A DNA stretch of 51,755 nucleotides. It comes from Acidobacteriota bacterium (GTDB taxonomy: Bacteria; Acidobacteriota; Aminicenantia; JBFLYD01). Below, one piece after another: positions 10,000-40,257 of this stretch; within the stretch, counting starts at the first letter, position 1; each line of letters begins with the position of its first letter. Under the pieces are notes generated by a model. It was not told the DNA's origin. It made no database searches and saw nothing but the letters and a program-made list of their open reading frames with translations. The position numbers and the translations under genes were made by a program. The stretch lies in contig JBFLYD010000068.1 in NCBI GenBank assembly GCA_040756905.1, positions 1 to 51,755 on the forward strand, given 5' to 3'.

Positions 10000-10352
10000 T
10001 GTTAAAATTCATATTTTTGGGAATTAAGTCACAAATTTGTGAATTTTTGTATATTATTGATAATTAATAAATTAAATTAATTTTTTGTAATTTCTTAGTT
10101 AATCTTTTCTTATTTTTTTAAAAAATCAAACTTTATTTAAGTATCTCCTTCAATTTTTTAATTTACTGTTCTTCCATTATTTACAAGGGATTTCGCTCAT
10201 ATAAAGGATAGCTCAAAGTATTGGAATGATTTTTGCATATAGTTTTATGGAAGCTCAAGAAATGACAATCATTGATTTATTAAAAATATTGCGATTAAAA
10301 GAAAATTATCAAGAGTTTTTTGATAATTTCAATTCAATTGAAAGGAGATGAA
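10000..10352. other. AT-rich leader region of redox island 1
   Basis: There is no gene in these 353 bases. The left part is very AT-rich without a clear terminator hairpin. The right part holds a sigma-54-type promoter at 10221-10237 and a 5' untranslated region of about 105 bases ending in AAAGGAG. The enhancer sites expected for an NtrC-type activator should lie at about 10080-10200, but I see no convincing inverted repeat there. Confidence 0.5.
10221..10237 (+). promoter_or_regulatory. Sigma-54 (-24/-12) promoter of redox island 1
   Basis: TTGGAATGATTTTTGCA matches the consensus YTGGCACGRNNNTTGCW at every position except two cytosines. The invariant GG (10223-10224) and GC (10235-10236) are at the correct 12-base offset. 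Transcription would begin near 10248, about 105 bases before the cytochrome-porin start codon. An NtrC-type activator is encoded at the end of the same gene cluster. Confidence 0.7.
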
Positions 10353-11630
10353 ATGAAAAAATCCAGTATTTCGATTGTATTGATTCTTTTGTTTATTATT
10401 TGTTTTTCTCAATTAGTTCAAGCTCTTCCCACATTTTCCAGGAAATATGAGACAAGTTGTTCCACCTGTCATGTGGCTATTCCCAAACTTACAGCTTTCG
10501 GAGAGAGTTTTCGACTCAATGGGTATCAGATTCCTGAAGGGGATGAAGAGTACTTAAAGGAAAAGCCTGTTTCTTTAGGAGCAACTCCTTGGAAGAAAGT
10601 CTGGCCGGACGCAATATGGCCTGGAGCCATACCAGGTTCTTTTCCTCTATCTGCTTTTATCATGTCAGATGTGAATCAACCGTTGGAAGGAGAGGAAAAA
10701 GAAATGGAGCTGGAATTTCCCCATGAGGTTGAAATTTTCATGGCTGGCACAATGGGAGACGATGTTCCTTTTTTTGCAGAAGTAGAGATCGAAGAGGGAG
10801 AGGTGGAAGCAGAAGCCTGGGTTGGCTTCTACAATGTATTCAATTCTGATAGAAGAACTGTTAATTTTAGAATAGGCTCTTTTGAAATTAATCCTTTACC
10901 AGTTGCTTTTGACCATCTGAGATTAAGTAAAACCCATTATCTTTATAATAACTGGCGTATGCCAGGAAGTGAGAACAGGTTTAGATTAAGAGGTGGAAAG
11001 CCAGGATTTGAAATTAATGGAATTTTAGGTAGTGGTTTTTATTACAGTGCAGGATTGGTTGACCCTGAAGGAGGCTTTGATAGTTATGGAACAATACGTT
11101 TTAAATTAGGAGGAACACCTTTCGATCGCTCAGCTCCAACGGAAGAGGCTACCAAAGAGGCAATAGGTGTGAAGCCAACAGGTTTCTGGATAGATAATTC
11201 ATTTGAACTGGCTGCTTTTGCCTATTTCGGTAGAGCCCATGTGATTGGTGAAGTTAAGGATAGTTTTAACCGGTATGGAATAGGCGCACGCTGGAACTAT
11301 CAGAATCTACATCTATCAGGAGGATATCTCATAGGAGAAAATAAGGACCCATATGGTAGATTGAGCGCTCAGAGTGTGGATTCAAGAACATGGTTTGTTG
11401 AGGCTAATTATTATATATTTCCATGGCTTATTGCAGAGGCAAGATATGAGTCCTTAGAGCTTGATGAACCTACAGACTATCGTGTCACCGATATTGATCA
11501 GACTAATGTAATTGTGGGACTTAGCTGGACGATCAGAGCAAACATAAGGTTAATTACAGAAGCTACTCTCTATACCAAGGGAGTTGGTAAAACCGATATA
11601 TTTAATGTGCGCCTAGTCTTTGGGTTTTAA
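10353..11630 (+). CDS. Cyc2-like fused monohaem cytochrome c / outer-membrane porin (copy 1)
   Basis: The 425-residue product has a signal peptide (about 1-24), then LPTFSRKYETSCSTCH with one c-type haem site (C36-H40), followed by PKLTAFGESFRLNGYQIP. The arrangement of haem site, P-L-FG, F-NGY and then a beta-strand-rich domain ending in Phe (RLVFGF) is that of Cyc2-type cytochrome-porins, known in iron oxidisers as outer-membrane proteins that pass electrons across the barrel. ATG 10353 is chosen because AAAGGAG precedes it; the upstream in-frame TTG has none. A second, divergent copy lies at 38424-39647. Related proteins also occur in organisms not known to oxidise iron, so the substrate is open. 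It opens a cluster of copper and iron-sulfur redox genes. Confidence 0.75.
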   Translation: MKKSSISIVLILLFIICFSQLVQALPTFSRKYETSCSTCHVAIPKLTAFGESFRLNGYQIPEGDEEYLKEKPVSLGATPWKKVWPDAIWPGAIPGSFPLSAFIMSDVNQPLEGEEKEMELEFPHEVEIFMAGTMGDDVPFFAEVEIEEGEVEAEAWVGFYNVFNSDRRTVNFRIGSFEINPLPVAFDHLRLSKTHYLYNNWRMPGSENRFRLRGGKPGFEINGILGSGFYYSAGLVDPEGGFDSYGTIRFKLGGTPFDRSAPTEEATKEAIGVKPTGFWIDNSFELAAFAYFGRAHVIGEVKDSFNRYGIGARWNYQNLHLSGGYLIGENKDPYGRLSAQSVDSRTWFVEANYYIFPWLIAEARYESLELDEPTDYRVTDIDQTNVIVGLSWTIRANIRLITEATLYTKGVGKTDIFNVRLVFGF

Positions 11631-11718
11631 TCAGGAAAATTTTTTAAATTTAGTGAAATCCAAAAGATTTTTTAAGAAAAAAATAAATTGAATAAATTAT
11701 TTATTAATGAGGAGGAAC

Positions 11719-12327
11719 ATGATGAAGAAATCTATAAAGATATTTCTTTCAATTTTATTACTGCATAGCATTATTTTAACTGTTTCGGGAGAAGAAAAAG
11801 GAGGTACAGTAGCTGGAACTATAAAATATAAATATGTAAATAAATATCCAGCAGTGGTTTATATCGAAGAAATAACAGGGATGAAGTTCGACCCTCCAAA
11901 AAAGCCAGTTGAAATGGATCAAAAAGGAAAGGAATTTATACCTCGAATTCTTCCAATCCTTGCAGGTACAACGGTTAATTTTCTCAACAGTGATGACATG
12001 GAGCATAATGTATTCTCTCCCGATGGAGAAAAGTATGATTTAGGTACGTGGGGTAAAGGACTGAAGCGAAGTTATACATTCAAGAATTCTGGAGCATATA
12101 CCCAACTTTGTTCTCTTCATCCTGAGATGGTTGCGTATATAATAGTTGTTAAGACACCATTCTTTTCGATAACAGATCCCGAAGGAAATTTTAAAATTCC
12201 CAATATTCCGCCAGGAACCTGGAAGCTGAAAGTCTGGCATGAACGATTTAAGCCAAGACAGCTTGAGAAGCAATATGAGGTGAAAATAGAAGCAGAAACG
12301 GAGACAAAACTATTGATCGAGTTATAA
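11719..12327 (+). CDS. Exported cupredoxin (plastocyanin-like) with C-terminal carboxypeptidase-regulatory-like domain
   Basis: After a signal peptide (about 1-25, ending before EEKGGTVAG) comes a cupredoxin fold. Likely type-1 copper ligands are His in DMEHNVFSPD and Cys-His-Met in LCSLHPEM. This pattern resembles the methylamine-utilisation/plastocyanin-like proteins found near periplasmic cytochromes. The last 50 residues (TDPEGNFKIPNIPPGTWKLKVWHE) form a small beta domain as in carboxypeptidase-regulatory-like modules. The start is ATG 11719, since the earlier ATG at 11707 lies inside the ribosome-binding site GAGGAGG. It probably shuttles electrons in the periplasm between the membrane CuA proteins and the outer-membrane cytochrome. 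Confidence 0.8.
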   Translation: MMKKSIKIFLSILLLHSIILTVSGEEKGGTVAGTIKYKYVNKYPAVVYIEEITGMKFDPPKKPVEMDQKGKEFIPRILPILAGTTVNFLNSDDMEHNVFSPDGEKYDLGTWGKGLKRSYTFKNSGAYTQLCSLHPEMVAYIIVVKTPFFSITDPEGNFKIPNIPPGTWKLKVWHERFKPRQLEKQYEVKIEAETETKLLIEL

Positions 12328-12354
12328 AAAGGAAATGTCAATAAAGATATAATC

Positions 12355-12882
12355 ATGCGCAACCGGATAATTCAAATTCTAATTTTCATTTTAATTGTAA
12401 TAGTTTCAGGCCTTATAGGATTTTTTGCAGGAAACATGAATTTAAATCCTAAAAAGAGGGATATCACTATCCGCGCTTTTAGATATGGTTATAACCCTGA
12501 AATTATAAGAGTTAACCGTGGTGACCTTATAAGGCTACGATTTATATCCGAGGATGTAATTCATGGTTTCTACCTTGAAGGATATGACCTTGATGTTATT
12601 ATCACTCCATTGCAATCTAAAGTTGAATTGCATAAACCAAGTCAGCCGGGGAAATCTAAAAATGTGGAGGAAGTTGTGTTTATTGCTGAGCGCGAAGGAA
12701 AATTCCGTTACAGATGTTCTCAGACATGCGGATATATGCATCCATTCATGTTAGGTGAATTGATAGTAAGGCCAAATCGATTGCTGCCCACAAGTTTTGG
12801 GCTTGCGATAGGTATCCTTATAGGAGGATTTTTTATAGCCCTTTTGAAGAGGGAGAATTCCGGTAATGTCAATGGTGAATAA
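12355..12882 (+). CDS. Membrane-anchored CuA-type (cytochrome oxidase subunit II-like) cupredoxin
   Basis: The 175-residue protein has an N-terminal membrane anchor (about 7-26), a cupredoxin domain and a second hydrophobic segment near the C-terminus (about 146-165). The CuA ligands are complete: H70 in DVIHGFYL, then C121, C125, H129 and M132 in CSQTCGYMHPFM, the CxxxCxxxHxxM motif of cytochrome oxidase subunit II and nitrous oxide reductase. The usual long subunit II N-terminal hairpin is absent, and no subunit I gene is in the window. It starts 27 bases after the cupredoxin gene and ends 3 bases before the iron-sulfur protein gene, so it is part of one transcript. Confidence 0.82.
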   Translation: MRNRIIQILIFILIVIVSGLIGFFAGNMNLNPKKRDITIRAFRYGYNPEIIRVNRGDLIRLRFISEDVIHGFYLEGYDLDVIITPLQSKVELHKPSQPGKSKNVEEVVFIAEREGKFRYRCSQTCGYMHPFMLGELIVRPNRLLPTSFGLAIGILIGGFFIALLKRENSGNVNGE

Positions 12883-12885
12883 AAC

Positions 12886-14304
12886 ATGCGGATTGATCTT
12901 TTTAAAAAAATTCCAGCTTTAAAATGGTTGTGTCAACGTCGATGGTTTCAATTCGCAGTAATCTTACCCAACCTTTTTTTATTTTTATTTTTCCTTACTG
13001 CTGGAACATTCGGAAGTCCTGTGGGGAATCGAAATATTATAATCATTTTTGTCTGGATTCTCTGGTGGTTTCTTCTAATCAGTTTAATGGTTCCATTTTT
13101 TTCCCGTATCTGGTGTACAGTCTGTCCGTTTCCCTTTTTTGGAGAATGGTTACAGAGGAGAGCTCTAATACGTGCCCGTGGCATTGACCCTAAAAAGAAA
13201 GAAGGACCTGGTATAACAGTTGGAAGGAATCGGTACTTTGGTTTAAACCTTCGATGGCCAAAAGTCCTCTCAAACATCTGGATTCAAAATATAGGATTTT
13301 TAGCTCTATGTACATTCAGTGCTCTGTTCCTGACTCGCCCGATCGTAAGCGTATTTGTGCTGGGGTCTCTCTTTTTAATTGCTACAGTTATGCACCAGAT
13401 TTACCGACAGCGGGCTTTTTGCAATTATGTGTGTCCTGTTAGTGGATTTCTAAGTCTTTATTCTATGACTTCTATGGTTGAAGTTCGATCTAAAGATTAT
13501 GATGTATGCGTGAGATGTAAGGATAAAGGATGTCTTGCAGGAAATGACAAGGGTTGGGGATGCCCCTGGATGCTTTATCCGAGTAAGCTGGACCGGAACA
13601 ACTATTGTGGTCTCTGTATGGAATGTTTTAAAACATGCCCCTACGATAATATGACAATAAACTTGAGGCCATTTGCATCAGATACGAAGCTTAAGGGATA
13701 TGATGAGGCATGGAAGGCTTTTATTATGCTAACACTGGCTATAGCTTACTCCCTTATTTATTTAGGCCCATGGTCTTTTTTTAAAGATTGGGCTAACATA
13801 ACCGAGAAATGGGACTTGGCTGGGTTTATTGCCTATGGAATAATGTTGTGGATATCAGCACTGCTTTTGATGCCCGGTATCTATTATCTTGCTGTTTATA
13901 CAGGAAGGAAGCTCTCAGGTTCAAATACTCCTTCATTTAAAGAAATGTTTCTCAATTTTGCCTATCCCCTTGTTCCTCTGGGTCTTCTTGCTTGGATAGC
14001 ATTCAGCTTTCCTCTTATCCTGGTTAATGGTTCATATATACTGATGGTTCTTTCGGACCCATTTGGGTGGGGATGGAATCTATTCGGAACTGCAAATATT
14101 AAGTGGACTCCAGTTATTCCTCACTGGACTCCATACATCCAGGTTTCTTTGCTTCTCATCGGGTTGTATTATTCCCTTAAAAAAGGATACATCCATGCTT
14201 TACAACTTTACAGCAGCCGTTCAGAGGCAATAAGAGGTTTTGCACCTGTGGCAATACTTCTCACAGGAATTGTTTTGTTTTTCCTGAGGTTATATGCAGG
14301 GTAA
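12886..14304 (+). CDS. NosR/NapH-like polytopic membrane protein with 4Fe-4S ferredoxin clusters
   Basis: The 472-residue protein has about eight membrane helices. WCTVCPFPFFGEW and FCNYVCPVSGF are the paired CxxxCP-type motifs typical of NapH/NosR/CcoG membrane iron-sulfur proteins. Between helices lies a cytoplasmic ferredoxin-like loop: CVRCKDKGC...GC and CGLCMECFKTCP (about residues 208-255). The family moves electrons between quinol and periplasmic acceptors, as NosR does for nitrous oxide reductase. No FMN-binding domain as in full NosR is present. Lying between two CuA protein genes, it is the best candidate for the inner-membrane, quinone-linked end of the chain. Its 3' end lies within a few bases of the next start. 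Confidence 0.8.
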   Translation: MRIDLFKKIPALKWLCQRRWFQFAVILPNLFLFLFFLTAGTFGSPVGNRNIIIIFVWILWWFLLISLMVPFFSRIWCTVCPFPFFGEWLQRRALIRARGIDPKKKEGPGITVGRNRYFGLNLRWPKVLSNIWIQNIGFLALCTFSALFLTRPIVSVFVLGSLFLIATVMHQIYRQRAFCNYVCPVSGFLSLYSMTSMVEVRSKDYDVCVRCKDKGCLAGNDKGWGCPWMLYPSKLDRNNYCGLCMECFKTCPYDNMTINLRPFASDTKLKGYDEAWKAFIMLTLAIAYSLIYLGPWSFFKDWANITEKWDLAGFIAYGIMLWISALLLMPGIYYLAVYTGRKLSGSNTPSFKEMFLNFAYPLVPLGLLAWIAFSFPLILVNGSYILMVLSDPFGWGWNLFGTANIKWTPVIPHWTPYIQVSLLLIGLYYSLKKGYIHALQLYSSRSEAIRGFAPVAILLTGIVLFFLRLYAG

Positions 14305-14308
14305 AGCA

Positions 14309-15280
14309 ATGAAAGATAAAAGAGAGAAAATAGTGGAGTTTCTTGCAATTCTTGTAGTTGTATTATGCATCATTGGAAGTATTTTATTTCCATTGTCATA
14401 TGAATCTGAATCTGTAAAAAGATATTTCCAAAAGGGAAATAGAGTTATAACCATTACCGGTGTATTTGAGGAAGGAGTATGGACTGATGAGGAGGTTCGT
14501 GGGGGGAACTACTGGTATCGGAAATATTCTCCAGCACGACCGGTATTGCAGGTAGGACAGGAAATAATACTACGTTTAAAGAGCGCTGATGTAATTCATG
14601 CTTTTTATTCTCCTGGACTTGGTATAGGACCTGTAGATGTATATCCAGGCCAAGTAGTTGAGATAAAAGTAATACCAGAAAAAGTAGGTATTTTTGAATA
14701 CTACTGTACTACAATGTGCGGTGGACCTCACTTCGGGATGCGAGGAGAAATAGTTGTGCTTGGCAGGGATACTCAATCAAACCAATCTTTACCGTCAAAA
14801 AGTTTAAATTTTGGGAAGTACTGGCTTGAAAAACCTCCTCCACCTGATGCAAGACCAGTTGAATACGGGAAATGGTTATATCGTCAAAAAGGCTGTTTCA
14901 CCTGCCATGGATTAAATGGAGAAGGCGGTATTCAAAACTGGAACTATGTGAAAAATGTTATTCCTGCTTTAAATATTTTATCTGAAAGGATGATGTTATT
15001 TGATAAGGAAGATGCAGATGAAATTGTGAAATTACTCGAGAGGGGGATCGATTTAGAGAAAATTTCAGAGCTTCCTGTTCCACGTTATAATGTTGTACTG
15101 GCTCAATATAAAGCAATCCGCGATGTTATTAAAAAAGGAAGTCTCCCTGGAAAGAAAGATCCTGAGGGACCGATGCCACCGCTATTGATGCCCTCATGGG
15201 AACAACTGTTATCAGATTCTGATATAGATGCTATTATTGCTTATCTTCTAACTTTACAGCCATGGGAGGAAGAAGAATGA
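14309..15280 (+). CDS. CuA-domain protein fused to cytochrome c (subunit II / CtaC-like)
   Basis: An N-terminal anchor (about 8-30) leads to a CuA domain: H97 in DVIHAFYS and C133, C137, H141, M144 in CTTMCGGPHFGM. It continues into a class I cytochrome c domain with CFTCH (196-200) and a late methionine-rich loop (PMPPLLMPSW) for the sixth haem ligand. This is the layout of cytochrome-c-fused oxidase subunit II; the CuA part also resembles the C-terminal domain of NosZ. No catalytic subunit lies nearby. An in-frame ATG at 14294 would overlap the previous gene by 11 bases; 14309 gives a normal charged N-terminus. The stop codon overlaps the Sco gene start. Confidence 0.85.
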   Translation: MKDKREKIVEFLAILVVVLCIIGSILFPLSYESESVKRYFQKGNRVITITGVFEEGVWTDEEVRGGNYWYRKYSPARPVLQVGQEIILRLKSADVIHAFYSPGLGIGPVDVYPGQVVEIKVIPEKVGIFEYYCTTMCGGPHFGMRGEIVVLGRDTQSNQSLPSKSLNFGKYWLEKPPPPDARPVEYGKWLYRQKGCFTCHGLNGEGGIQNWNYVKNVIPALNILSERMMLFDKEDADEIVKLLERGIDLEKISELPVPRYNVVLAQYKAIRDVIKKGSLPGKKDPEGPMPPLLMPSWEQLLSDSDIDAIIAYLLTLQPWEEEE

Positions 15281-15870
15281 AGAAGGCAATTTACATACTT
15301 TTTATCGGTCTGATTATAAGCTTTGGCATTTTAATAATTCGGGGGATTTATCATTCGAAATCCTTTTATGCCCTGAAACCAGGTGATTTGATTCCTGATG
15401 CAATTCTTAAGGATCAGGATGGTCGTGAATTCTTTATCTCTGATCTTAAGGGGAATATTTTGTGTCTTGCTTTTATATATACTCGCTGCAATGTGCCTTC
15501 AATGTGTCCTTCAGTAACCGAAAAACTTGTTAGAACTAAAGATTTATTGATTAATAGAGGTTTTAATAGAGTCATATTTATATTAATCAGCTTCGATCCA
15601 TCATGGGATACACCGGATAGGCTAAAAGAATATGCTTCTCAATATGATGTGGATTATACTTTCTTCAGGTTTGCATCTGGAGACCCTCAGACTATTGCAA
15701 ACCTCAGTCGGGCATTTAACATATATTATCGGGAGGCGTCTAACGGAATATTTGAGCATAATATTGTAGTATCTTTGATTGACCAGAATGGTATTTTGAG
15801 AAAATATTTCTTGGGCACTGAATGGAGAAAGGAAGATCTGATTTCAGAAATAGAGTTTCTGATAAAGTAA
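15277..15870 (+). CDS. Sco1/SenC-family copper chaperone
   Basis: The protein has about 197 residues, an N-terminal membrane anchor (about 4-22) and a thioredoxin-like fold. The copper-binding motif is TRCNVPSMCP (two cysteines separated by five residues, followed by proline, a spacing found in many bacterial Sco-like proteins). The distal histidine is in FEHNIVV. Sco proteins load and reduce CuA centres, which fits two CuA proteins in the same cluster. ATG 15277 is chosen because GGGAGGAAGAAG precedes it and ATGA overlaps the upstream stop. It is the last gene before a pair of hairpins and the regulatory genes. Confidence 0.88.
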   Translation: MKKAIYILFIGLIISFGILIIRGIYHSKSFYALKPGDLIPDAILKDQDGREFFISDLKGNILCLAFIYTRCNVPSMCPSVTEKLVRTKDLLINRGFNRVIFILISFDPSWDTPDRLKEYASQYDVDYTFFRFASGDPQTIANLSRAFNIYYREASNGIFEHNIVVSLIDQNGILRKYFLGTEWRKEDLISEIEFLIK

Positions 15871-16000: not shown

Positions 16001-17452
16001 ATGAAATTCGTTGCTTTGCACTTTCAAATTTTGTATAAATCTAAAAAGATAATGTATAATGAAAAAAAAGCAATGATTATAAAAGAACGAACCCATAAAC
16101 TGGAAGAGAAATTGTTTGAAACTGAAGCCATGATGATAAGCTGGTTTATAGAGCTTCGCTGGATAGCTTTTGCCCTTGCATTGATTTTTTGTTTATGGGG
16201 TGTGTACATTTTTGGTGTTGTCAAAGAAAGTACATGCCGTGTACCTTTAACCATTTTTACTGTTTCTATAGGAATTAGTAATGGTATTTTTCTTTATCTA
16301 TCAAAAAAGCAGATCTCAACCCGTTTACAACTTTTTATTCAGATTATTTCTGACCTTTTTATTTTGACAGGCATATTGCATCATTCCGGTGGTGCTGAAA
16401 ATCCATTGTTCATGCTATATGTATTTCATGTATTTATAGCGAGTATACTTCTATCTAAAAGTGATGCATATAAAGTAACAGTTATGGCATGTGTTTTTTT
16501 TGCCACTCTTTCTATTCTTGAATACTCTCATATTCTACCACACTATACTTTGGAAGTCTTTCCTCATTATGAAGATAAACATGCCTCCCATGATCCCCTT
16601 TATACGTTTGGAATTTTAGGGGTTTTTATCATGGTGATGTTTGTTTCAACATTATTTGCTACATCCCTTGCTGAAAATTTGCGCACTCAAATCAAAAAGC
16701 AAAAAGAGATAGCCTCACAACTTGTCCAGGCTGCAAAAATGTCAGCGATTGGAGAAATAGCGGGAAATATTGCCCATGAAATAAACAATCCAATTGGTAT
16801 CATAATAATGAAAACAAAAACATTGCTTTCAGATTTTCGACAACATCTATCAGAAAAGGTAATCTCAGACATTGAGAAAATAGACAAACATGCAGCACGA
16901 ATTGCAACTATTATAACTGGTCTTTTGAGTTTTGCACGTCCATCGGTGAATAAAAAAGAACCCCTTGATATAAATAAAGTTATAGAGGAAAGTTTTAATT
17001 TAATACGATCGCGAGTTGAAATTGAACGGATTTCTTTAAAATTTGATTTAGAAGGCAATCTTCCAAGAATTATTGGAAATTTTAATGAATTACAACAGGT
17101 TATCATCAATATTGTAAATAATGCTGTTGATGCAATGCCAGATGGTGGAGAACTTATGGTTCGAACTTCTCGTTCAGGATATATGAATAATCAGACCACT
17201 GAAGATGTGGAAATTGAGATCGCTGATACTGGAAAAGGTATTCCGTCCGAGCACAAAGAGTTAATTTTTACGCCATTTTTTACAACCAAGGGTAAAAAAG
17301 GCACGGGACTGGGCCTTACCATATGCGATGGAATAATCAGAGATCATAATGGAAAAATCAGGATTGAATCAACCCTTGGAAAGGGAAGCAGGTTTCATAT
17401 TTTTCTTCCCTGTGCAAGAGGTGAACAAGTTTATACGGGAGAAAAAAATTAA
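16001..17452 (+). CDS. Membrane sensor histidine kinase, RegB-like
   Basis: Residues about 48-222 contain five to six membrane helices. A loop carries GGAENPL (130-136), close to the GGxxNPF motif of RegB/PrrB kinases that is linked to quinone sensing. A second loop is histidine-rich (HILPHYTLEVFPHYEDKHAS), which could bind metal. The kinase core follows: GEIAGNIAHEINNP with phospho-acceptor H259, N-box NIVNNAVDAM, G1 DTGKGIP and G2 GKKGTGLGLT. It should phosphorylate the NtrC-type regulator encoded 10 bases downstream. The start is uncertain: ATGs at 16001, 16052 and 16073 are all in frame and none has a good ribosome-binding site. Confidence 0.88.
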   Translation: MKFVALHFQILYKSKKIMYNEKKAMIIKERTHKLEEKLFETEAMMISWFIELRWIAFALALIFCLWGVYIFGVVKESTCRVPLTIFTVSIGISNGIFLYLSKKQISTRLQLFIQIISDLFILTGILHHSGGAENPLFMLYVFHVFIASILLSKSDAYKVTVMACVFFATLSILEYSHILPHYTLEVFPHYEDKHASHDPLYTFGILGVFIMVMFVSTLFATSLAENLRTQIKKQKEIASQLVQAAKMSAIGEIAGNIAHEINNPIGIIIMKTKTLLSDFRQHLSEKVISDIEKIDKHAARIATIITGLLSFARPSVNKKEPLDINKVIEESFNLIRSRVEIERISLKFDLEGNLPRIIGNFNELQQVIINIVNNAVDAMPDGGELMVRTSRSGYMNNQTTEDVEIEIADTGKGIPSEHKELIFTPFFTTKGKKGTGLGLTICDGIIRDHNGKIRIESTLGKGSRFHIFLPCARGEQVYTGEKN

Positions 17453-17462
17453 AAGTTAAGAA

Positions 17463-18854
17463 ATGAAGATTCCAAAAGTCCTCATAGTTGATGATGAACC
17501 TGATATGCTTGAGGTCTGCGAGGATGCTTTAAAGAGATTAGATCTGAGCGTATCAACTGAAGCGAATGTATTAAATGCCCTGGAAATGTTAAATAAAAAT
17601 GACTGGGCTCTCGTGCTTGTGGATTTAAAGATGCCGGAGATGGATGGAATAAGCTTTCTTAAAAAAGTCCTGGAGATCTCTCCCGAAACGATGGTTTGTA
17701 TGATAACAGGATATCCCACTGTTGAAACTGCAGTGGAAGCAATAAAACTTGGAGCTTATGATTATGTCATCAAGCCCTTTACTCCAGAACAGATTCGGGT
17801 TGTAGTGAAGCGTGCTCTTGAGCAAAAATATTTAAGAGAAGAAAATGTTTTTCTCAGAAGACATTTCGAGCAAACATATAAGTTTGATAATATAGTGGGG
17901 AAAAGCCAACCAATGCAAAAAATTTTTGAACTTATTAATCAAGTAGCTCCAACTGATTCTGATGTATTGCTGATAGGGGAGAGTGGAACAGGTAAGGAGT
18001 TGATTGCACGAAGTATCCATACTCGAAGCAATCGAAAAGATAGACCATTTGTTCCTGTGGACTGCAGCGCGATACCTGAGAATTTAATGGAAAGCGAATT
18101 TTTTGGATATGAAAAGGGAGCTTTTACTGATGCATCAACCTCAAGAATGGGACTTCTTGAATTTGCCCATAAAGGAACATTCTTTTTAGATGAGATATGC
18201 GAACTCAGTCTTTCATTGCAGGCTAAACTTCTAAGGACTTTACAGGAGAGAAGTTTTAGAAGAATAGGAGCAAGGGAAGAGAAAAGAGTCGATGTACGGG
18301 TTATAGCGGCAACTAATCGGGATATTGATGAAGAAGTCAAAGAAAAAAGGTTTCGTGCAGACCTTTATTATCGTATAAATGTCGTTAAAATATATGTTCT
18401 GCCTCTCAGAGAGAGAAGAGAGGATATAGAATTGTTAACAGAGTATTTTGTTGATCGCTATTCAAGAGAGATAGGAAAACCAATAAAAGGTGTTGATAAG
18501 GATGTAAAGGAAGTGCTTTTAAATTATTCATGGCCTGGTAATGTAAGGGAATTTCAGAATATTATTAAAAGAGGAATAATATTAACTCAGAATGAGTATA
18601 TCAAGCTAAGCGATATTCCCAATGAAATTGCAGTACTGGCAGGAAAGGAAAAAGTTCAAAATCAAGGAATTTCAGGATTTTTTGAACTCCGTTCTCATGA
18701 AATGGCGAAGTTTGAAAGAGAATATTTGGAGAAATTACTCACAAGATTCAAGGGTGATGTTTCGGAGGCTGCAAAGGAAGCGAAACTTCCAAAGGGCACA
18801 TTATACAGATTTCTCAAAAAATATAAGCTCAGGACTGATAATTTTCGAAAGTAA
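17463..18854 (+). CDS. NtrC-family sigma-54-dependent response regulator
   Basis: The 463-residue product has three modules. The receiver domain (1-120) has acidic D10/D11, phospho-acceptor D54 in LVDLKMPEMDG and K in VIKPF. The AAA+ sigma-54 interaction domain (about 140-380) has Walker A GESGTGKE and the activator loop GAFTDA, a variant of GAFTGA. The C-terminal Fis-type helix-turn-helix is EAAKEAKLPKGTLYRFLKKY. Walker B reads FFLDEICEL, with cysteine where glycine is usual. It should activate sigma-54 promoters on phosphorylation, and the promoter at 10221 upstream of the same cluster is the obvious target. It forms an operon with the kinase. Confidence 0.93.
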   Translation: MKIPKVLIVDDEPDMLEVCEDALKRLDLSVSTEANVLNALEMLNKNDWALVLVDLKMPEMDGISFLKKVLEISPETMVCMITGYPTVETAVEAIKLGAYDYVIKPFTPEQIRVVVKRALEQKYLREENVFLRRHFEQTYKFDNIVGKSQPMQKIFELINQVAPTDSDVLLIGESGTGKELIARSIHTRSNRKDRPFVPVDCSAIPENLMESEFFGYEKGAFTDASTSRMGLLEFAHKGTFFLDEICELSLSLQAKLLRTLQERSFRRIGAREEKRVDVRVIAATNRDIDEEVKEKRFRADLYYRINVVKIYVLPLRERREDIELLTEYFVDRYSREIGKPIKGVDKDVKEVLLNYSWPGNVREFQNIIKRGIILTQNEYIKLSDIPNEIAVLAGKEKVQNQGISGFFELRSHEMAKFEREYLEKLLTRFKGDVSEAAKEAKLPKGTLYRFLKKYKLRTDNFRK

Positions 18855-35235: not shown

Positions 35236-36717
35236 ATGAAGAAAAAATTGTTTTTAACCTTGAAATTTAAAATTTCTATTATTGTATTGTTGACTTTAAT
35301 AATAAGCATTGGGATTTTGAATTACTATGACCTTAAATACCGTTCTATTTTGGAAGATTCTGTGTCAAAGGAGAACATAAGTATTTTAAGTTCATCCATT
35401 GAAAATGTTCTTACAGCTCCTATGGTAGAAGGGAAAATAGAGCTGGTTCAAAAGATCATAACGAACATATCTATAAAAAATGAAATTGTAAATTTTAAGA
35501 TCGTTTCTGATGTAGGAAAAATAGTGTCCTCTTCTGTAAAGGAAGAAATTGGGAAGAAAGTCGAAATGGAAATTAAAGAAGCTATTGGTGAGATTTTAAA
35601 AAGCAACAAAAAAGAACCATATTTTAAAAAAGAAAAAACAAGCTTTTTCTATGTTAAGTCAATAACGAATAATCATAGATGTTACTCCTGCCATAATCCT
35701 GAAAAGAAAATTAACGGATTTTTATACATAAAATTTAACTTTAATAGAATTAAAAAAATAACAGAAGAAGACACAGAAAGAATGGTATTGATTTCATTAG
35801 TTATCTTAATTTTGACATTTTTATTTTTAAGGATAGCCTTCAAAAAATACATAAATAATCCAATTGTCTCAATTTTAAAGTATATGAGAGAAATCGAAAA
35901 GGGGAATTTCAAAGTTAGAGCCAATTTCAGAGGAAATGATGAAATTTCTCAGTTGGGAGAGAAGTTCAACCATATGGCAGAAAGGGTTGAAGAGATTTAT
36001 GCCGAAAAAGAAAGAATTCACAGTGAAGAGATGAGATATGCAGAACATCTTGCATCCCTTGGAGAACTCGGAGCAGGATTGGCTCATGAGATAAAAAACC
36101 CCCTTACAGGTATAAAAGGAGCTCTTGAGACTATAATTGAGGAGAACCCTAAGAAAGAGAATTTAAGGGATATACTTAATGCAGTTCTTTCTCAAATTGA
36201 CAGGATAAATGAAGTTATCAAGGAGTTCTTGATTTACGCTAAACCAAAGCAGCCTCAGCTTGTTATGTCAAACATGTGCAGAATAGTTAAAAATGCTATA
36301 AAAATAGTTGAGTTTTATTATTTCAACAAAAAGATTGAATTCAATTCTCTGTGTCCTGTTAACCTTCCAAATCAATACCTTGATGAAGATCAAGTTCAAC
36401 AGGTACTGGTAAATCTGTTAATGAATAGCATTGAATCAATAGAGAATGAGGGGAAGATATCCTTAATTCTGAATGTATTAAATAAAAAAGGTATTGAAAT
36501 AAAGATTATTGATAATGGAAGAGGAATTCCAAAAGAGAATATGCCGTTAGTTTTCAAGCCTTTTTTTACAACAAAACCAAGAGGTACAGGTCTTGGACTT
36601 TCTGTATGTAAGAGAATTATTGAGAACCATAAAGGTCGAATAAGTATTGAGAGTGAAGAAGGTCAAGGCACAATTGTTTCAATTTTTTTTCCTTTTATTA
36701 AAAATTTGGAAATATAA
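35236..36717 (+). CDS. Sensor histidine kinase with a c-type haem motif in its periplasmic sensor domain
   Basis: Membrane helices at about 12-30 and 184-200 enclose a periplasmic domain of about 150 residues that carries CYSCH (149-153), a c-type haem attachment site. A HAMP linker (about 203-255) leads to the kinase core: GELGAGLAHEIKNPLTG with H284, N-box NLLMNSIESI, DNGRGIP, and FFTTKPRGTGLGLSVC. The layout resembles kinases whose sensor haem reports redox state or small gases. The partner regulator starts 4 bases after its stop. A sigma-54 promoter match abuts the start codon, suggesting autoregulation by that partner. Confidence 0.9.
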   Translation: MKKKLFLTLKFKISIIVLLTLIISIGILNYYDLKYRSILEDSVSKENISILSSSIENVLTAPMVEGKIELVQKIITNISIKNEIVNFKIVSDVGKIVSSSVKEEIGKKVEMEIKEAIGEILKSNKKEPYFKKEKTSFFYVKSITNNHRCYSCHNPEKKINGFLYIKFNFNRIKKITEEDTERMVLISLVILILTFLFLRIAFKKYINNPIVSILKYMREIEKGNFKVRANFRGNDEISQLGEKFNHMAERVEEIYAEKERIHSEEMRYAEHLASLGELGAGLAHEIKNPLTGIKGALETIIEENPKKENLRDILNAVLSQIDRINEVIKEFLIYAKPKQPQLVMSNMCRIVKNAIKIVEFYYFNKKIEFNSLCPVNLPNQYLDEDQVQQVLVNLLMNSIESIENEGKISLILNVLNKKGIEIKIIDNGRGIPKENMPLVFKPFFTTKPRGTGLGLSVCKRIIENHKGRISIESEEGQGTIVSIFFPFIKNLEI

Positions 36718-36721
36718 AATT

Positions 36722-38119
36722 ATGAAGAAAGCCCGGATTCTGATAGTAGATGATGAATATTTAATAAGGTGGAATCTGAAAAAGAAATTAGAAAAATGGG
36801 GATATATCCCATTCGAAGCATCAACAGGAAAAAGTGCTATTGAAGAAACTCAGAGAATAAATCCTAATTTAGTCATTCTTGACTTAATTCTTCCTGATTT
36901 GAAAGGGACAGATGTTTTGAAAGAAATTAAAAAAATAAATCCGAACATTTCTGTTATTGTTATAACAGCATACGGAACGATTGAAGATGCAGTTTTTTCA
37001 ATCAAAGAAGGAGCTTTTGATTTTATAACAAAACCAATAAATTATGAGGTTTTAGAAAATCTTGTTAAAAATTCCCTTGAAGCTCACTTTCTTAAAGAAG
37101 AAATAATTTTTTATAAGGAGAAAGAGAAAGAAGAAGCATTGACTGACAAAATTGTTGGCGACTCTTTCAGGATAAAAGAAGCATTAGATCTCGCATTGAA
37201 AGTAGCCAGAAGTGAAGCATCTACAGTATTACTTTTAGGAGAAAGTGGAACGGGCAAAGAATTATTTGCAAAATTTATTCATTATAATTCGAAAAGAAGC
37301 TATGGCCCTTTTATCCCTATAAATTGTTCAACTTTGCCTGAAAATCTTCTGGAAAGTGAATTATTTGGCTATGAAAAAGGTGCTTTTACTGATGCCAAAG
37401 CTCAAAAGAAAGGATTGTTTGAAGTGGCTGACGGAGGAACAATTTTTCTTGATGAGATAGGAGATATGAAGCCAGCTCTTCAGGTAAAATTATTGAGAGT
37501 TCTTGAAGATAATTATTTTAGAAGAATAGGGGGAATTCATGAAATATATGTTGATGTGAGGGTAATAGCAGCTTCCAATCATGAATTGGAGAAAGATGTA
37601 GAAAAAGGGGATTTCAGGAAAGATTTATTTTATCGATTGAATCTATTTCCCATTAAATTACCTCCTCTCAGGGAAAGAAAAGAAGATATTCTTCCCCTTG
37701 CAAATCATTTTATAAATATATTGAATCAAAAACTTAAAAAGAATATAAAATCAATAGAAACAAACGCTAAAAAGATACTTTTGGAGTATGACTGGCCAGG
37801 AAATGTAAGAGAATTAAAAAATGCTGTTGAAAGAGCCATGATTCTGGAAGATGATTCTATTCTCCATTCTGAGAATTTACCCATTAAGATTAAAGAAAAG
37901 AATGAATTAAATCCTGATATTCTATTTGAAATCCCTGAATGTGGTGCATCTCTTGAAAATATTGAAAAGAGTTTAATAATCAAGGCCTTACAGAAAAGTA
38001 AAGGGAATCAGAAAAAAGCAGCTGAATTGTTGAGTATTGGTAGAGATGCTATCAGGTATAAAATAAAAAAGTATAAAATAAATGTAAAAGATTTTAAAAG
38101 TAGTCATATAACCCATTAG
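36722..38119 (+). CDS. NtrC-family sigma-54-dependent response regulator (partner of the haem-motif kinase)
   Basis: The 465-residue product has a receiver domain with D10/D11, phospho-acceptor D54 (ILDLILPDLKG) and K in ITKPI. An AAA+ domain follows with Walker A GESGTGKE, the sigma-54 contact loop GAFTDA and Walker B IFLDEIGDM. A Fis-type helix-turn-helix ends the protein (QKKAAELLSIGRDAIRYKIKKY). ATG 36722 is preferred because the receiver domain starts there; the longer frame from 36647 overlaps the kinase gene by about 70 bases. Its likely targets are the sigma-54 promoters at 38356 (cytochrome-porin) and 35207 (its own operon). Confidence 0.94.
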   Translation: MKKARILIVDDEYLIRWNLKKKLEKWGYIPFEASTGKSAIEETQRINPNLVILDLILPDLKGTDVLKEIKKINPNISVIVITAYGTIEDAVFSIKEGAFDFITKPINYEVLENLVKNSLEAHFLKEEIIFYKEKEKEEALTDKIVGDSFRIKEALDLALKVARSEASTVLLLGESGTGKELFAKFIHYNSKRSYGPFIPINCSTLPENLLESELFGYEKGAFTDAKAQKKGLFEVADGGTIFLDEIGDMKPALQVKLLRVLEDNYFRRIGGIHEIYVDVRVIAASNHELEKDVEKGDFRKDLFYRLNLFPIKLPPLRERKEDILPLANHFINILNQKLKKNIKSIETNAKKILLEYDWPGNVRELKNAVERAMILEDDSILHSENLPIKIKEKNELNPDILFEIPECGASLENIEKSLIIKALQKSKGNQKKAAELLSIGRDAIRYKIKKYKINVKDFKSSHITH

Positions 38120-38355
38120 AATAGTCAAATAAACCACATATTAATAAATTAATTAGCATATCCTTAAACCTGAGAATATCTTCTTTCTGAAAAAGAATTT
38201 TTTTCTTAAAATTAAGAAAATAATCTTAAATTTGTTTAATAAGTTAAAAATCTAATAAACATTGAATGGGGTTTGCTTATGTTTTTATGAATATGAAAAA
38301 GAGAAAATAAAACCTTTTAAATAAAGAAATTGATCATATTTTATTTACTCTTGAT

Positions 38356-38372
38356 TTGGCATTAGAATTGCT
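38356..38372 (+). promoter_or_regulatory. Sigma-54 (-24/-12) promoter of the second cytochrome-porin gene
   Basis: TTGGCATTAGAATTGCT matches YTGGCACGRNNNTTGCW almost throughout, with GG at 38358-38359 and GC at 38370-38371. Predicted transcription start is near 38383, about 40 bases before the start codon, with AAAGGAGG in between. Of the 304 gene-free bases here the rest is AT-rich; a palindrome TTTTCTTAAAATTAAGAAAA lies near 38198-38218, upstream of the promoter, and could be a terminator of the regulator operon or an activator site. Confidence 0.78.
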
Positions 38373-38423
38373 ACTAAAATATATATGTTTTACACAATAT
38401 TTTTTTAAAGGAGGATGAGCTAT

Positions 38424-39647
38424 ATGAGTAAAGTTTATTTACGTAGAGTTATGTTTATTCCAGCTGTTATTCTAATATTCGGGTTTCTTGGTAATTCATA
38501 TTTATTTCCACTTTCCCAGTGGACAAGGAAATATGGTGTAAGTTGTAATACTTGCCATTCTGTGTTTCCAAGGTTGAATTATTTTGGGGAAAAATTTATG
38601 CGTAATGGATATCAAATGCCAGAAACTCAAGATGGGGATGAGGTAGGTAAAAAAGCAATTGGAAACAAGCTTACAATTGGAGAGGTAGGGGATTTTGTTG
38701 GTGTCAGGCTGAACTTATCTTTAGTAGAAATTAAAACACACAGTCTTAATAAAAATGGGAAAATGGTTACTTCTTATGATTTTGGAAAACCTTCATGGGT
38801 TCAGATCTTCCCTGGCGGAACTATTTTTAAGAATGTCTCAACATTTGCAGAAATTGAATTCCAGGCGGATAAGATAGAGGTTCATTGGTTGAAGGTTGGT
38901 TTACATAATCTATTTGGAACAAGCCTTTTCAACATTAGGTTTGGGCAACTCGCTCCTACCGAGTGGCATGCTGCTTCAGGCAGATTAAGAATGATTCCAC
39001 CAGCAGAAGCATGGCGTAGTGTTAAATCTTCTGGAGGTAAAGGCGAAGATTCTGTAGACATTGGCGGTGGTAAACCATCGTTAAGTATTTATGGATATAA
39101 GGTTCCATTTCTTTTTGAGGTTGGAGTTCAAGGTGGGGCAAAGGTAACAGATGTTAATGATTTCAAAAATTACTGGGGAGTAGTTCGACTCGAAATGCCC
39201 TCAGGAATGTTGGAAGGGAGTTCAATATCACTTTTTGCCTTCAAAGGAGTTGATACAAAGGATACAGCTACATCGCAGAAGAGAAATAATTTTACAAGGA
39301 TTTCCCCGGCATTCAATATAAGAACAGGAGCATTTGATGCAATTTTTGCATATGTAAATGGTAAAGATGATAACTGGTACCTTACATCGACAAAACCAAC
39401 AGAGGTAGCCCATAAAGGCATTTTAGCTCAATGTGGATATCTCCATAATAATATCTATTATCATATTCGATATGATTCTACTGATTATGATGATCCGAAA
39501 ATAACAGATTATAAGAAGATAACCCCTTCGCTCTGGTATGTGGCAAGAGATAATTGGAAGATTGGTTTTATGGCACGATTCGATTTGACGAGTCCAAAAA
39601 CCGGTAAAGTCAATGAATATCTGATAATCATGCGCAGTATGTTTTAA
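38424..39647 (+). CDS. Cyc2-like fused monohaem cytochrome c / outer-membrane porin (copy 2)
   Basis: The product has about 407 residues. A signal peptide (about 1-28) precedes WTRKYGVSCNTCH (haem site C41-H45) and PRLNYFGEKFMRNGYQMP, the same N-terminal block as in copy 1. The remainder is beta-strand-rich and ends in phenylalanine (RSMF), as outer-membrane barrels do. The ATG at 38424 is chosen because AAAGGAGG lies 8 bases upstream; the ATG at 38415 touches the ribosome-binding site. Identity with copy 1 beyond the haem region looks low, so these are diverged paralogues rather than a recent duplication. It follows its own sigma-54 promoter and regulator pair. Confidence 0.75.
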   Translation: MSKVYLRRVMFIPAVILIFGFLGNSYLFPLSQWTRKYGVSCNTCHSVFPRLNYFGEKFMRNGYQMPETQDGDEVGKKAIGNKLTIGEVGDFVGVRLNLSLVEIKTHSLNKNGKMVTSYDFGKPSWVQIFPGGTIFKNVSTFAEIEFQADKIEVHWLKVGLHNLFGTSLFNIRFGQLAPTEWHAASGRLRMIPPAEAWRSVKSSGGKGEDSVDIGGGKPSLSIYGYKVPFLFEVGVQGGAKVTDVNDFKNYWGVVRLEMPSGMLEGSSISLFAFKGVDTKDTATSQKRNNFTRISPAFNIRTGAFDAIFAYVNGKDDNWYLTSTKPTEVAHKGILAQCGYLHNNIYYHIRYDSTDYDDPKITDYKKITPSLWYVARDNWKIGFMARFDLTSPKTGKVNEYLIIMRSMF

Positions 39648-39660
39648 AAAAAGAATTTAG

Positions 39661-39691
39661 GGGTATAATATATTATTATACCCTCTTTTTT
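39661..39691 (+). terminator. Rho-independent terminator after the second cytochrome-porin gene
   Basis: GGGTATAATA (39661-39670) and TATTATACCC (39674-39683) form a perfect 10-bp stem with a 3-base loop, followed by TCTTTTTT. It lies between the cytochrome-porin and tetrahaem cytochrome genes, so expression of the second gene would need read-through or its own promoter. Confidence 0.82.
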
Positions 39692-39729
39692 AAAATATTT
39701 TAATAAATTAATTTTAGAAGAAGGAGAAA

Positions 39730-40257
39730 ATGAAAACTTCAATTATATTTTTATTTATTATTTTCATCTTTGTTTTTCTGGGTTATTCATTCCCAAACAG
39801 TGAAACAGAAGCAACTTATTTAGGTATTGCAAAATGCAAACCCTGTCATATTCAAATTTATAATTCATGGGTCAAAACTCCTCATGCAAAAGCTTATAAA
39901 TCTCTAAAAGATAAAGCAAAAGTAAACAATTTTTTAAAGAGTCATAATGTAAGCAGCTTAATTCCGGAAGAAGCTCCTAAATCTCCTGATTGTGTTAGGT
40001 GTCATACGACAGGGTTTGAGTTAAATGGAGGGTTTAATTTGTCAAAGTCAAATGATAATTTAATTAATATTACATGTGAAAGCTGCCACGGCCCTGGTTC
40101 ATCTCATTACTCGGCAAAAAGAGACGAAAAAGCTAAATTTATAGTTGGAAAACCGGATGAGAAGGTATGTTTGACGTGCCATACAAAAGAAATGTCACCA
40201 GGTTTTATTTACGATGAATATGTGAAAAAAGGAGTTCATGAAATAGTTAAAAGATAA
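39730..40257 (+). CDS. Tetrahaem c-type cytochrome (cytochrome c554-like)
   Basis: A 175-residue exported protein with a signal peptide (about 1-20) and four haem sites: CKPCH (36-40), CVRCH (88-92), CESCH (116-120) and CLTCH (147-151). The stretch YLGIAKCKPCH...SWVKTPHAKAY followed by CESCHGPGSSHY is typical of the cytochrome c554 family, where histidines such as the one after SWxxTPH act as distal ligands. It would carry electrons in the periplasm, possibly for the neighbouring outer-membrane cytochrome-porin. AGAAGGAG lies before the ATG. It converges on ispG with 12 bases between the stop codons. Confidence 0.88.
   Translation: MKTSIIFLFIIFIFVFLGYSFPNSETEATYLGIAKCKPCHIQIYNSWVKTPHAKAYKSLKDKAKVNNFLKSHNVSSLIPEEAPKSPDCVRCHTTGFELNGGFNLSKSNDNLINITCESCHGPGSSHYSAKRDEKAKFIVGKPDEKVCLTCHTKEMSPGFIYDEYVKKGVHEIVKR

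Follow-up and report, generated by a model that had tools for sequence, protein, structure and literature searches.

A CuA and iron–sulfur operon with a Cyc2-like porin: a candidate electron conduit across the envelope of an Acidobacteriota bacterium

What do CuA proteins do in an operon that encodes no terminal oxidase? This question is raised by six genes at positions 10353-15870 of a 51,755-nucleotide stretch of DNA, contig C68 (JBFLYD010000068.1) of an Acidobacteriota bacterium, hereafter the window. The host genome (2.56 Mb, 69 contigs) is 97.8% complete and not closed. A preliminary description, made from the sequence alone, had listed these six genes, and all of them are present, co-directional on the + strand and closely packed, with gaps that are small or overlapping. 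On balance, we favour the reading that the operon encodes a trans-envelope electron conduit between the quinone pool and the outer membrane, for which we infer the contacts between the proteins, the reaction with quinone and the direction of flow. The genes are:

10353..11630, + strand: Cyc2-like monohaem cytochrome-porin, predicted to lie in the outer membrane; 425 amino acids (aa), signal-peptide-like start, one CXXCH
11707..12327, + strand: type-1 cupredoxin with a CarboxypepD_reg-like domain, predicted to be periplasmic; Copper-bind 27.4 bits (cut-off 21.2)
12355..12882, + strand: CuA1, a membrane-anchored CuA protein; CoxB/NosZ CuA profiles
12886..14304, + strand: polytopic membrane iron–sulfur (Fe–S) protein with a NapH/NosH-like core; Fer4_5, weak NapH profile
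14294..15280, + strand: CuA2-cyt c, a CuA domain fused to a monohaem cytochrome c; COX2 35 bits, Cytochrom_C 41 bits
15262..15870, + strand: Sco/SenC; SCO1-SenC 70.8 bits

In the mechanism that we propose, the polytopic Fe–S protein would exchange electrons with the quinone pool and CuA1, its partner, would accept them at the periplasmic face. The cupredoxin and CuA2-cyt c would ferry electrons through the periplasm, and the haem of the Cyc2-like porin would pass them across the outer membrane, with a partner outside, dissolved or on a surface, as acceptor or donor. The complete path would be quinol, Fe–S clusters, CuA1, cupredoxin and CuA2-cyt c, porin haem and outside partner, or the reverse. 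Sco, presumably a CuA assembly chaperone, would load copper into the CuA sites. Through such an operon, microbes may trade electrons with their environment in a manner not described so far. No earlier description of the six-gene set was found in the open-access literature; the nearest published set, a SCO1/multicopper cupredoxin cluster in Sideroxydans, differs from the window operon.

Copper and iron–sulfur proteins

Both CuA domains display the full His...C-x3-C-x3-H-x2-M ligand set (RCSQTCGYMHPFM and YYCTTMCGGPHFGM), as the preliminary description had stated, and the copper ligands of the cupredoxin are, by sequence, H and C-x2-H-x2-M. In relatives, the CuA1 ligands are complete in all 77 copies and those of CuA2 in 55 of the 66 candidates; the others are fragments or false assignments or belong to one subset of Acidobacteria. 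In this subset (L046-L049, L051 and L054), the CuA2 sequence reads CWQVCSPxHxxL, with Leu replacing the Met ligand, and there is no cytochrome c domain. The phylogenetic comparison with CtaC and NosZ that had been suggested at the outset places the window CuA domains on separate branches, with CuA2-cyt c on one of its own, in a low-resolution tree that has too few columns to position the root or the deep forks. The CuA-cytochrome c fusion and the Sco chaperone are reminiscent of subunit II of caa3 oxidases; the operon differs from those of haem-copper oxidases in lacking subunit I and in its separately branching CuA domains.

The Fe–S protein carries the CX2-3CP pair and the ferredoxin cysteines that mark NapH/NosH, and its residues C77, C80, C179, C183, C208, C216, C226, C241, C244, C247 and C251 are invariant in 30 aligned relatives. 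We infer that it is a quinone-side oxidoreductase. Like NosR/NosGH and NapGH, it is polytopic, has CX2-3CP motifs and would act between quinol and periplasm, and its paralogue in the host genome adjoins NosZ. Unlike these proteins, it has no FMN domain (a Pfam scan found no match to FMN_bind, the periplasmic domain of NosR), possesses extra C-terminal helices, scores far below the cut-off of the NapH/NosH profile TIGR02163 (25.5 bits versus 213) and has a CuA protein as direct partner. CuA1 is fused to the Fe–S protein in L014, in L050 and in Desulfobacterales. As assessed by structure prediction, the natural fusion of L050 (pLDDT 84.9, pTM 0.89) has its CuA domain confidently placed on the Fe–S protein. 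Comparison of the Fe–S protein with solved structures gave no significant match by sequence, and by fold only the CuA domain was matched, the CuA part of a fused homologue resembling 2cua.

The cytochrome-porin and the relatives of the operon

Cyc2 proteins are marked by AXPXFAR[Q/K][T/Y] shortly upstream of CXXCH and by PXL downstream; their barrel is reported to have 16 strands, those characterised so far are Fe(II) oxidases and no function has been proven for divergent Cyc2 clusters (PMC8406198). The window porin, whose start codon (ATG 10353) is preceded by a good ribosome site, GGAG, was assigned no family in Pfam and NCBIfam scans; it contains the motif string ALPTFSRKY-ETS-CSTCH-VAI-PKL. 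It has a single N-terminal CXXCH, PXL 4 residues later (CSTCHVAIPKL) and a length above the 365 aa that Cyc2 requires at least, and thus shares with Cyc2 (PMC8406198) these features, a near-identical motif and a 16-stranded barrel. The last of these comes from an AlphaFold model of moderate confidence (pLDDT 69.8), which matches 16-stranded general porins (E 7e-11). Because its motif is off by one residue, we class the porin, from its sequence, as Cyc2-like and not as Cyc2, from which it also differs in its companions, a CuA/Fe–S module without an oxidase; none of the papers found describes such a pairing.

Porins in the operons of relatives show the same range. Those of L041, L045, L052 and L055 have the exact Cyc2 motif and PXL, that of L041 being a classical FARQT Cyc2, and those of L037, L054, L058 and L060 are one residue off the motif. 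The L050 porin deviates in both motif and PXL, and L047 has a porin fragment at a contig end. A porin profile run over 31 genomes found about two dozen genes, of which some 11 lie within the module, where we estimate chance adjacency at well under one; this count is biased upwards, since most of the copies used to build the profile were module-linked.

To define how widely the module occurs, 84,980 species genomes were scanned with the Fe–S protein and 80 loci were kept. Relatives with 62-74% identity retain the order CuA, Fe–S, CuA2, often with cupredoxin and cytochrome c, and loci at 51-58% have the same arrangement in Acidobacteria, Planctomycetota, Myxococcota/Deltaproteobacteria, Ignavibacteria, Kapaibacteria and Desulfosarcina. 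Copies at 40-50% (Chloroflexi, Desulfobacterales, archaea and Methanoperedens) consist of CuA and Fe–S proteins with other companions. The preliminary description had proposed looking for the gene set in other genomes; it does recur without subunit I, in Acidobacteriota, Planctomycetota, Myxococcota, Ignavibacteriota/Kapaibacteria, FCPU426 and Desulfosarcina. Within the window's own phylum, 19 of 297 sampled genomes encode a relative of the Fe–S protein, and none of these 19 other than the host belongs to the same class. In the Fe–S tree, the window protein groups with those of Acidobacteriota, Myxococcota, FCPU426 and Planctomycetota, and the second copy of the host, on contig C34, falls in a different clade. 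Distribution and tree together suggest horizontal spread.

The porin is not the only conduit found with the module. In an Acidobacteriota relative whose Fe–S protein is 71% identical to that of the window (L061), a 10-haem cytochrome and an MtrB/PioB porin (344 bits) open the operon, in the slot of the porin. No observation argues more strongly for a trans-envelope path than this use of one operon slot by two unrelated types of outer-membrane conduit. MtrB is also found about 10 kb from the module in G308, a 12-haem cytochrome follows the module in L044 and a pentahaem cytochrome is present in many Desulfobacterales loci. Contig C14 of the host carries an MtrB porin as well. A Methanoperedens CuA/Fe–S unit (L105 8463-15151) is accompanied by 5- and 8-haem cytochromes. 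Lactonase-like propellers near some loci were considered as part of the module and rejected, their position and strand being inconsistent.

At the inner membrane, electrons are known to enter outer-membrane conduits mostly via multihaem cytochromes (CymA, ImoA) or b-type complexes. The proposed conduit resembles MtrAB/MtoAB/PioAB with CymA in leading from the quinone pool to the outer surface, with the decahaem cytochrome and MtrB of L061 as a further likeness, and differs from them in that its inner part consists of copper and Fe–S proteins instead of multihaem cytochromes. Because NosZ, NarGHJ-like and Aio-like partners occur elsewhere, the CuA/Fe–S unit is best seen as a general plug-in adapter between quinone and periplasm, here coupled to an outer-membrane conduit. 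A broader proposal, that an exchangeable NosR/NapH-like Fe–S and CuA module with Cyc2-, Mtr-type or multihaem conduits, and with paralogues attached to NosZ or molybdenum enzymes, makes up a class of its own within extracellular electron transfer across many bacterial phyla, is one that we advance tentatively, as slightly short of an even proposition. A route through copper and Fe–S proteins would mean that parts of oxidases and N2O reductases have been put to new use in trading electrons with the environment; Cyc2-type porins would gain an inner-membrane partner in genomes without a terminal oxidase, and a searchable marker set would become available for uncultured Acidobacteriota, Planctomycetota and their relatives.

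Electron destination and direction

The outline of a conduit, as first described, has gained comparative support and a linkage to Cyc2 and Mtr components; that it is self-contained is a conjecture, and a NosZ locus on host contig C34 has to be borne in mind. Profile scans confirmed that subunit I and NosZ are both absent from the cluster and the window. A COX1 search of the whole genome likewise found no canonical subunit I, its matches being limited to a 151-aa protein with four transmembrane segments, an NnrS-like protein and a broken norB scrap. For NosZ, the absence from the window does not extend to the genome: C34 carries a NosZ-like gene of 637 aa (500 bits, cut-off 625) that retains the CuZ histidines, one of them displaced by one residue in the alignment. 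Its neighbours encode Sco, a CuA cupredoxin, TlpA, an EB_dh protein and a 652-aa fusion of a CuA domain to a homologue of the window's Fe–S protein, so the host has two copies of the CuA/Fe–S unit, one of them with NosZ. The C34 locus (L014 4711-13479) holds three CuA proteins in all, besides EB_dh and the fusion. No nosDFYL genes were recognised near the NosZ-like gene, where the contig ends soon after, and a NosD match in the host is unclear (37 bits). On host contig C28 (L015 897-1505), an NO reductase seems to have decayed: a frame break splits the NorC-like gene, and the short NorB-like scrap behind it contains a stop. On C42 (L170 1456-3640), a short cydA-like protein with a weak score and a C-terminal CXXCH lies beside a second membrane subunit.

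Several observations weigh against an outer-membrane conduit. The host's NosZ-like gene is a possible electron destination elsewhere in the genome, NosZ follows CuA/Fe–S/CuA in an Acidobacteriota pair (L056 and L057) and Aio-like (arsenite-oxidase) molybdenum subunits lie near L040 and L053, an assignment made by eye for L053 and for part of L040. The orthologous loci L038 and L039 have no recognisable outer-membrane cytochrome. The window porin itself departs from the exact Cyc2 motif (FSR for FAR), and the count of module-linked porins carries the upward bias stated above. In an alternative that we consider improbable, the module would act as a quinol dehydrogenase of the nos/nap type and feed a periplasmic reductase encoded elsewhere, and the porin would be merely a co-regulated pore or have a separate function. 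Besides the NosZ-like protein of the host, it can draw on paralogous units with NosZ (C34, L056, L057 and L098, where NosZ again follows CuA/Fe–S/CuA) and on units with NarGHJ-like or Aio-like enzymes (L043, L102, L040 and L053). In the Planctomycetota loci L043 (1-7783) and L102 (3064-11762), NarGHJ-like genes and an EB_dh-CuA fusion lie beside the Fe–S/CuA unit, which suggests a CuA-wired molybdenum enzyme. Clustering of NosZ with these CuA proteins in relatives, which the preliminary description had named as counter-evidence, is thus seen for paralogues and not for near relatives. Against this alternative, NosZ on C34 comes with a fused CuA/Fe–S protein of its own. Full-length NosZ (TIGR04246) exceeds the cut-off in 7 of the 30 module genomes, with a split match in G297, so most module genomes lack it, and three also lack COX1: among the 24 genomes searched for COX1, the carriers G303, G304 and G309 gave no match, nor did they show full-length NosZ or L-NosZ, absences that are provisional. 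A clade III L-NosZ as hidden partner was rejected, no genome scoring above the cut-off. A mere co-regulated pore also sits poorly with a haem-motif porin that recurs in many loci and is substituted by an Mtr-type conduit in L061. Another alternative holds these to be orphan or assembly genes of a haem-copper oxidase, with subunit I lost or overlooked in the assembly; in its favour, CuA, Sco and cytochrome c are all oxidase-like and the genome is not closed. We regard it as very improbable and rejected it, as relatives with long flanks have no subunit I beside the module and the COX1 genes of their hosts lie on other contigs; the Fe–S protein is a constant partner and the CuA domains branch apart from CtaC.

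For the trans-envelope conduit, the direction of flow has to be weighed separately. The CuA potential (∼+250 mV) lies far above that of menaquinone, and electrons flow from quinol to a reductase in the known systems that have homologous parts. We slightly favour oxidation of quinol and export to an acceptor of high potential over uptake, because the Fe–S/CuA unit accompanies NosZ in paralogues and because of this potential difference. Electron uptake, in which the Cyc2-like porin would take electrons from a donor outside the cell, Fe(II) or another, and electrons would flow inward via copper to periplasmic acceptors or the quinone pool, is unlikely but a serious contender. It is in keeping with the Fe(II) oxidation of characterised Cyc2 proteins (PMC8406198), with the classical FARQT Cyc2 in the L041 operon and with the COX1 or NosZ that several carriers encode as possible sinks. 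Transfer from CuA to menaquinone would, however, be uphill, and no energy-coupled partner was seen. G303, G304 and G309 lack a COX1 or full-length NosZ sink, and the window porin is without the exact motif, in a family whose divergent clusters have no proven function (PMC8406198).

Putative promoter and regulators, and a second gene set

The operon is flanked by putative regulatory elements:

10221..10237, + strand: sigma54 (-24/-12) promoter-like site, TTGGAATGATTTTTGCA, ∼115 bases upstream of the first start codon
15887..15902, + strand: terminator-like stem, 3' of Sco
16001..17452, + strand: membrane histidine kinase (HATPase_c/HisKA) containing GGAENPLF
17463..18854, + strand: NtrC-type sigma54-activating response regulator; Sigma54_activat 238 bits

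The putative sigma54 site at 10221 is the sole exact match to YTGGNAYRNNNNTTGCW in the window, and similar sites precede the operons of L060, L058, L044 and L045. Regulators of the sigma54 type lie near the module in nine further loci. The NtrC-type regulator at 17463-18854 probably controls the operon, which the kinase/NtrC pair and the sigma54 promoter would turn on. The GGAENPLF of the window kinase resembles the quinone-site motif of RegB, and the L045 kinase carries the same motif; RegB-like GGxxNP was rejected as a general mark of these regulators, as it is present in the window and L045 kinases only. Further along the window, at 35236-40257, there is a second kinase/NtrC pair, with a sigma54-like site at 38356, a cytochrome c554-type protein and another monohaem porin, which has 410 aa and shares 23% identity with the first; together they possibly constitute a second, separately regulated conduit.

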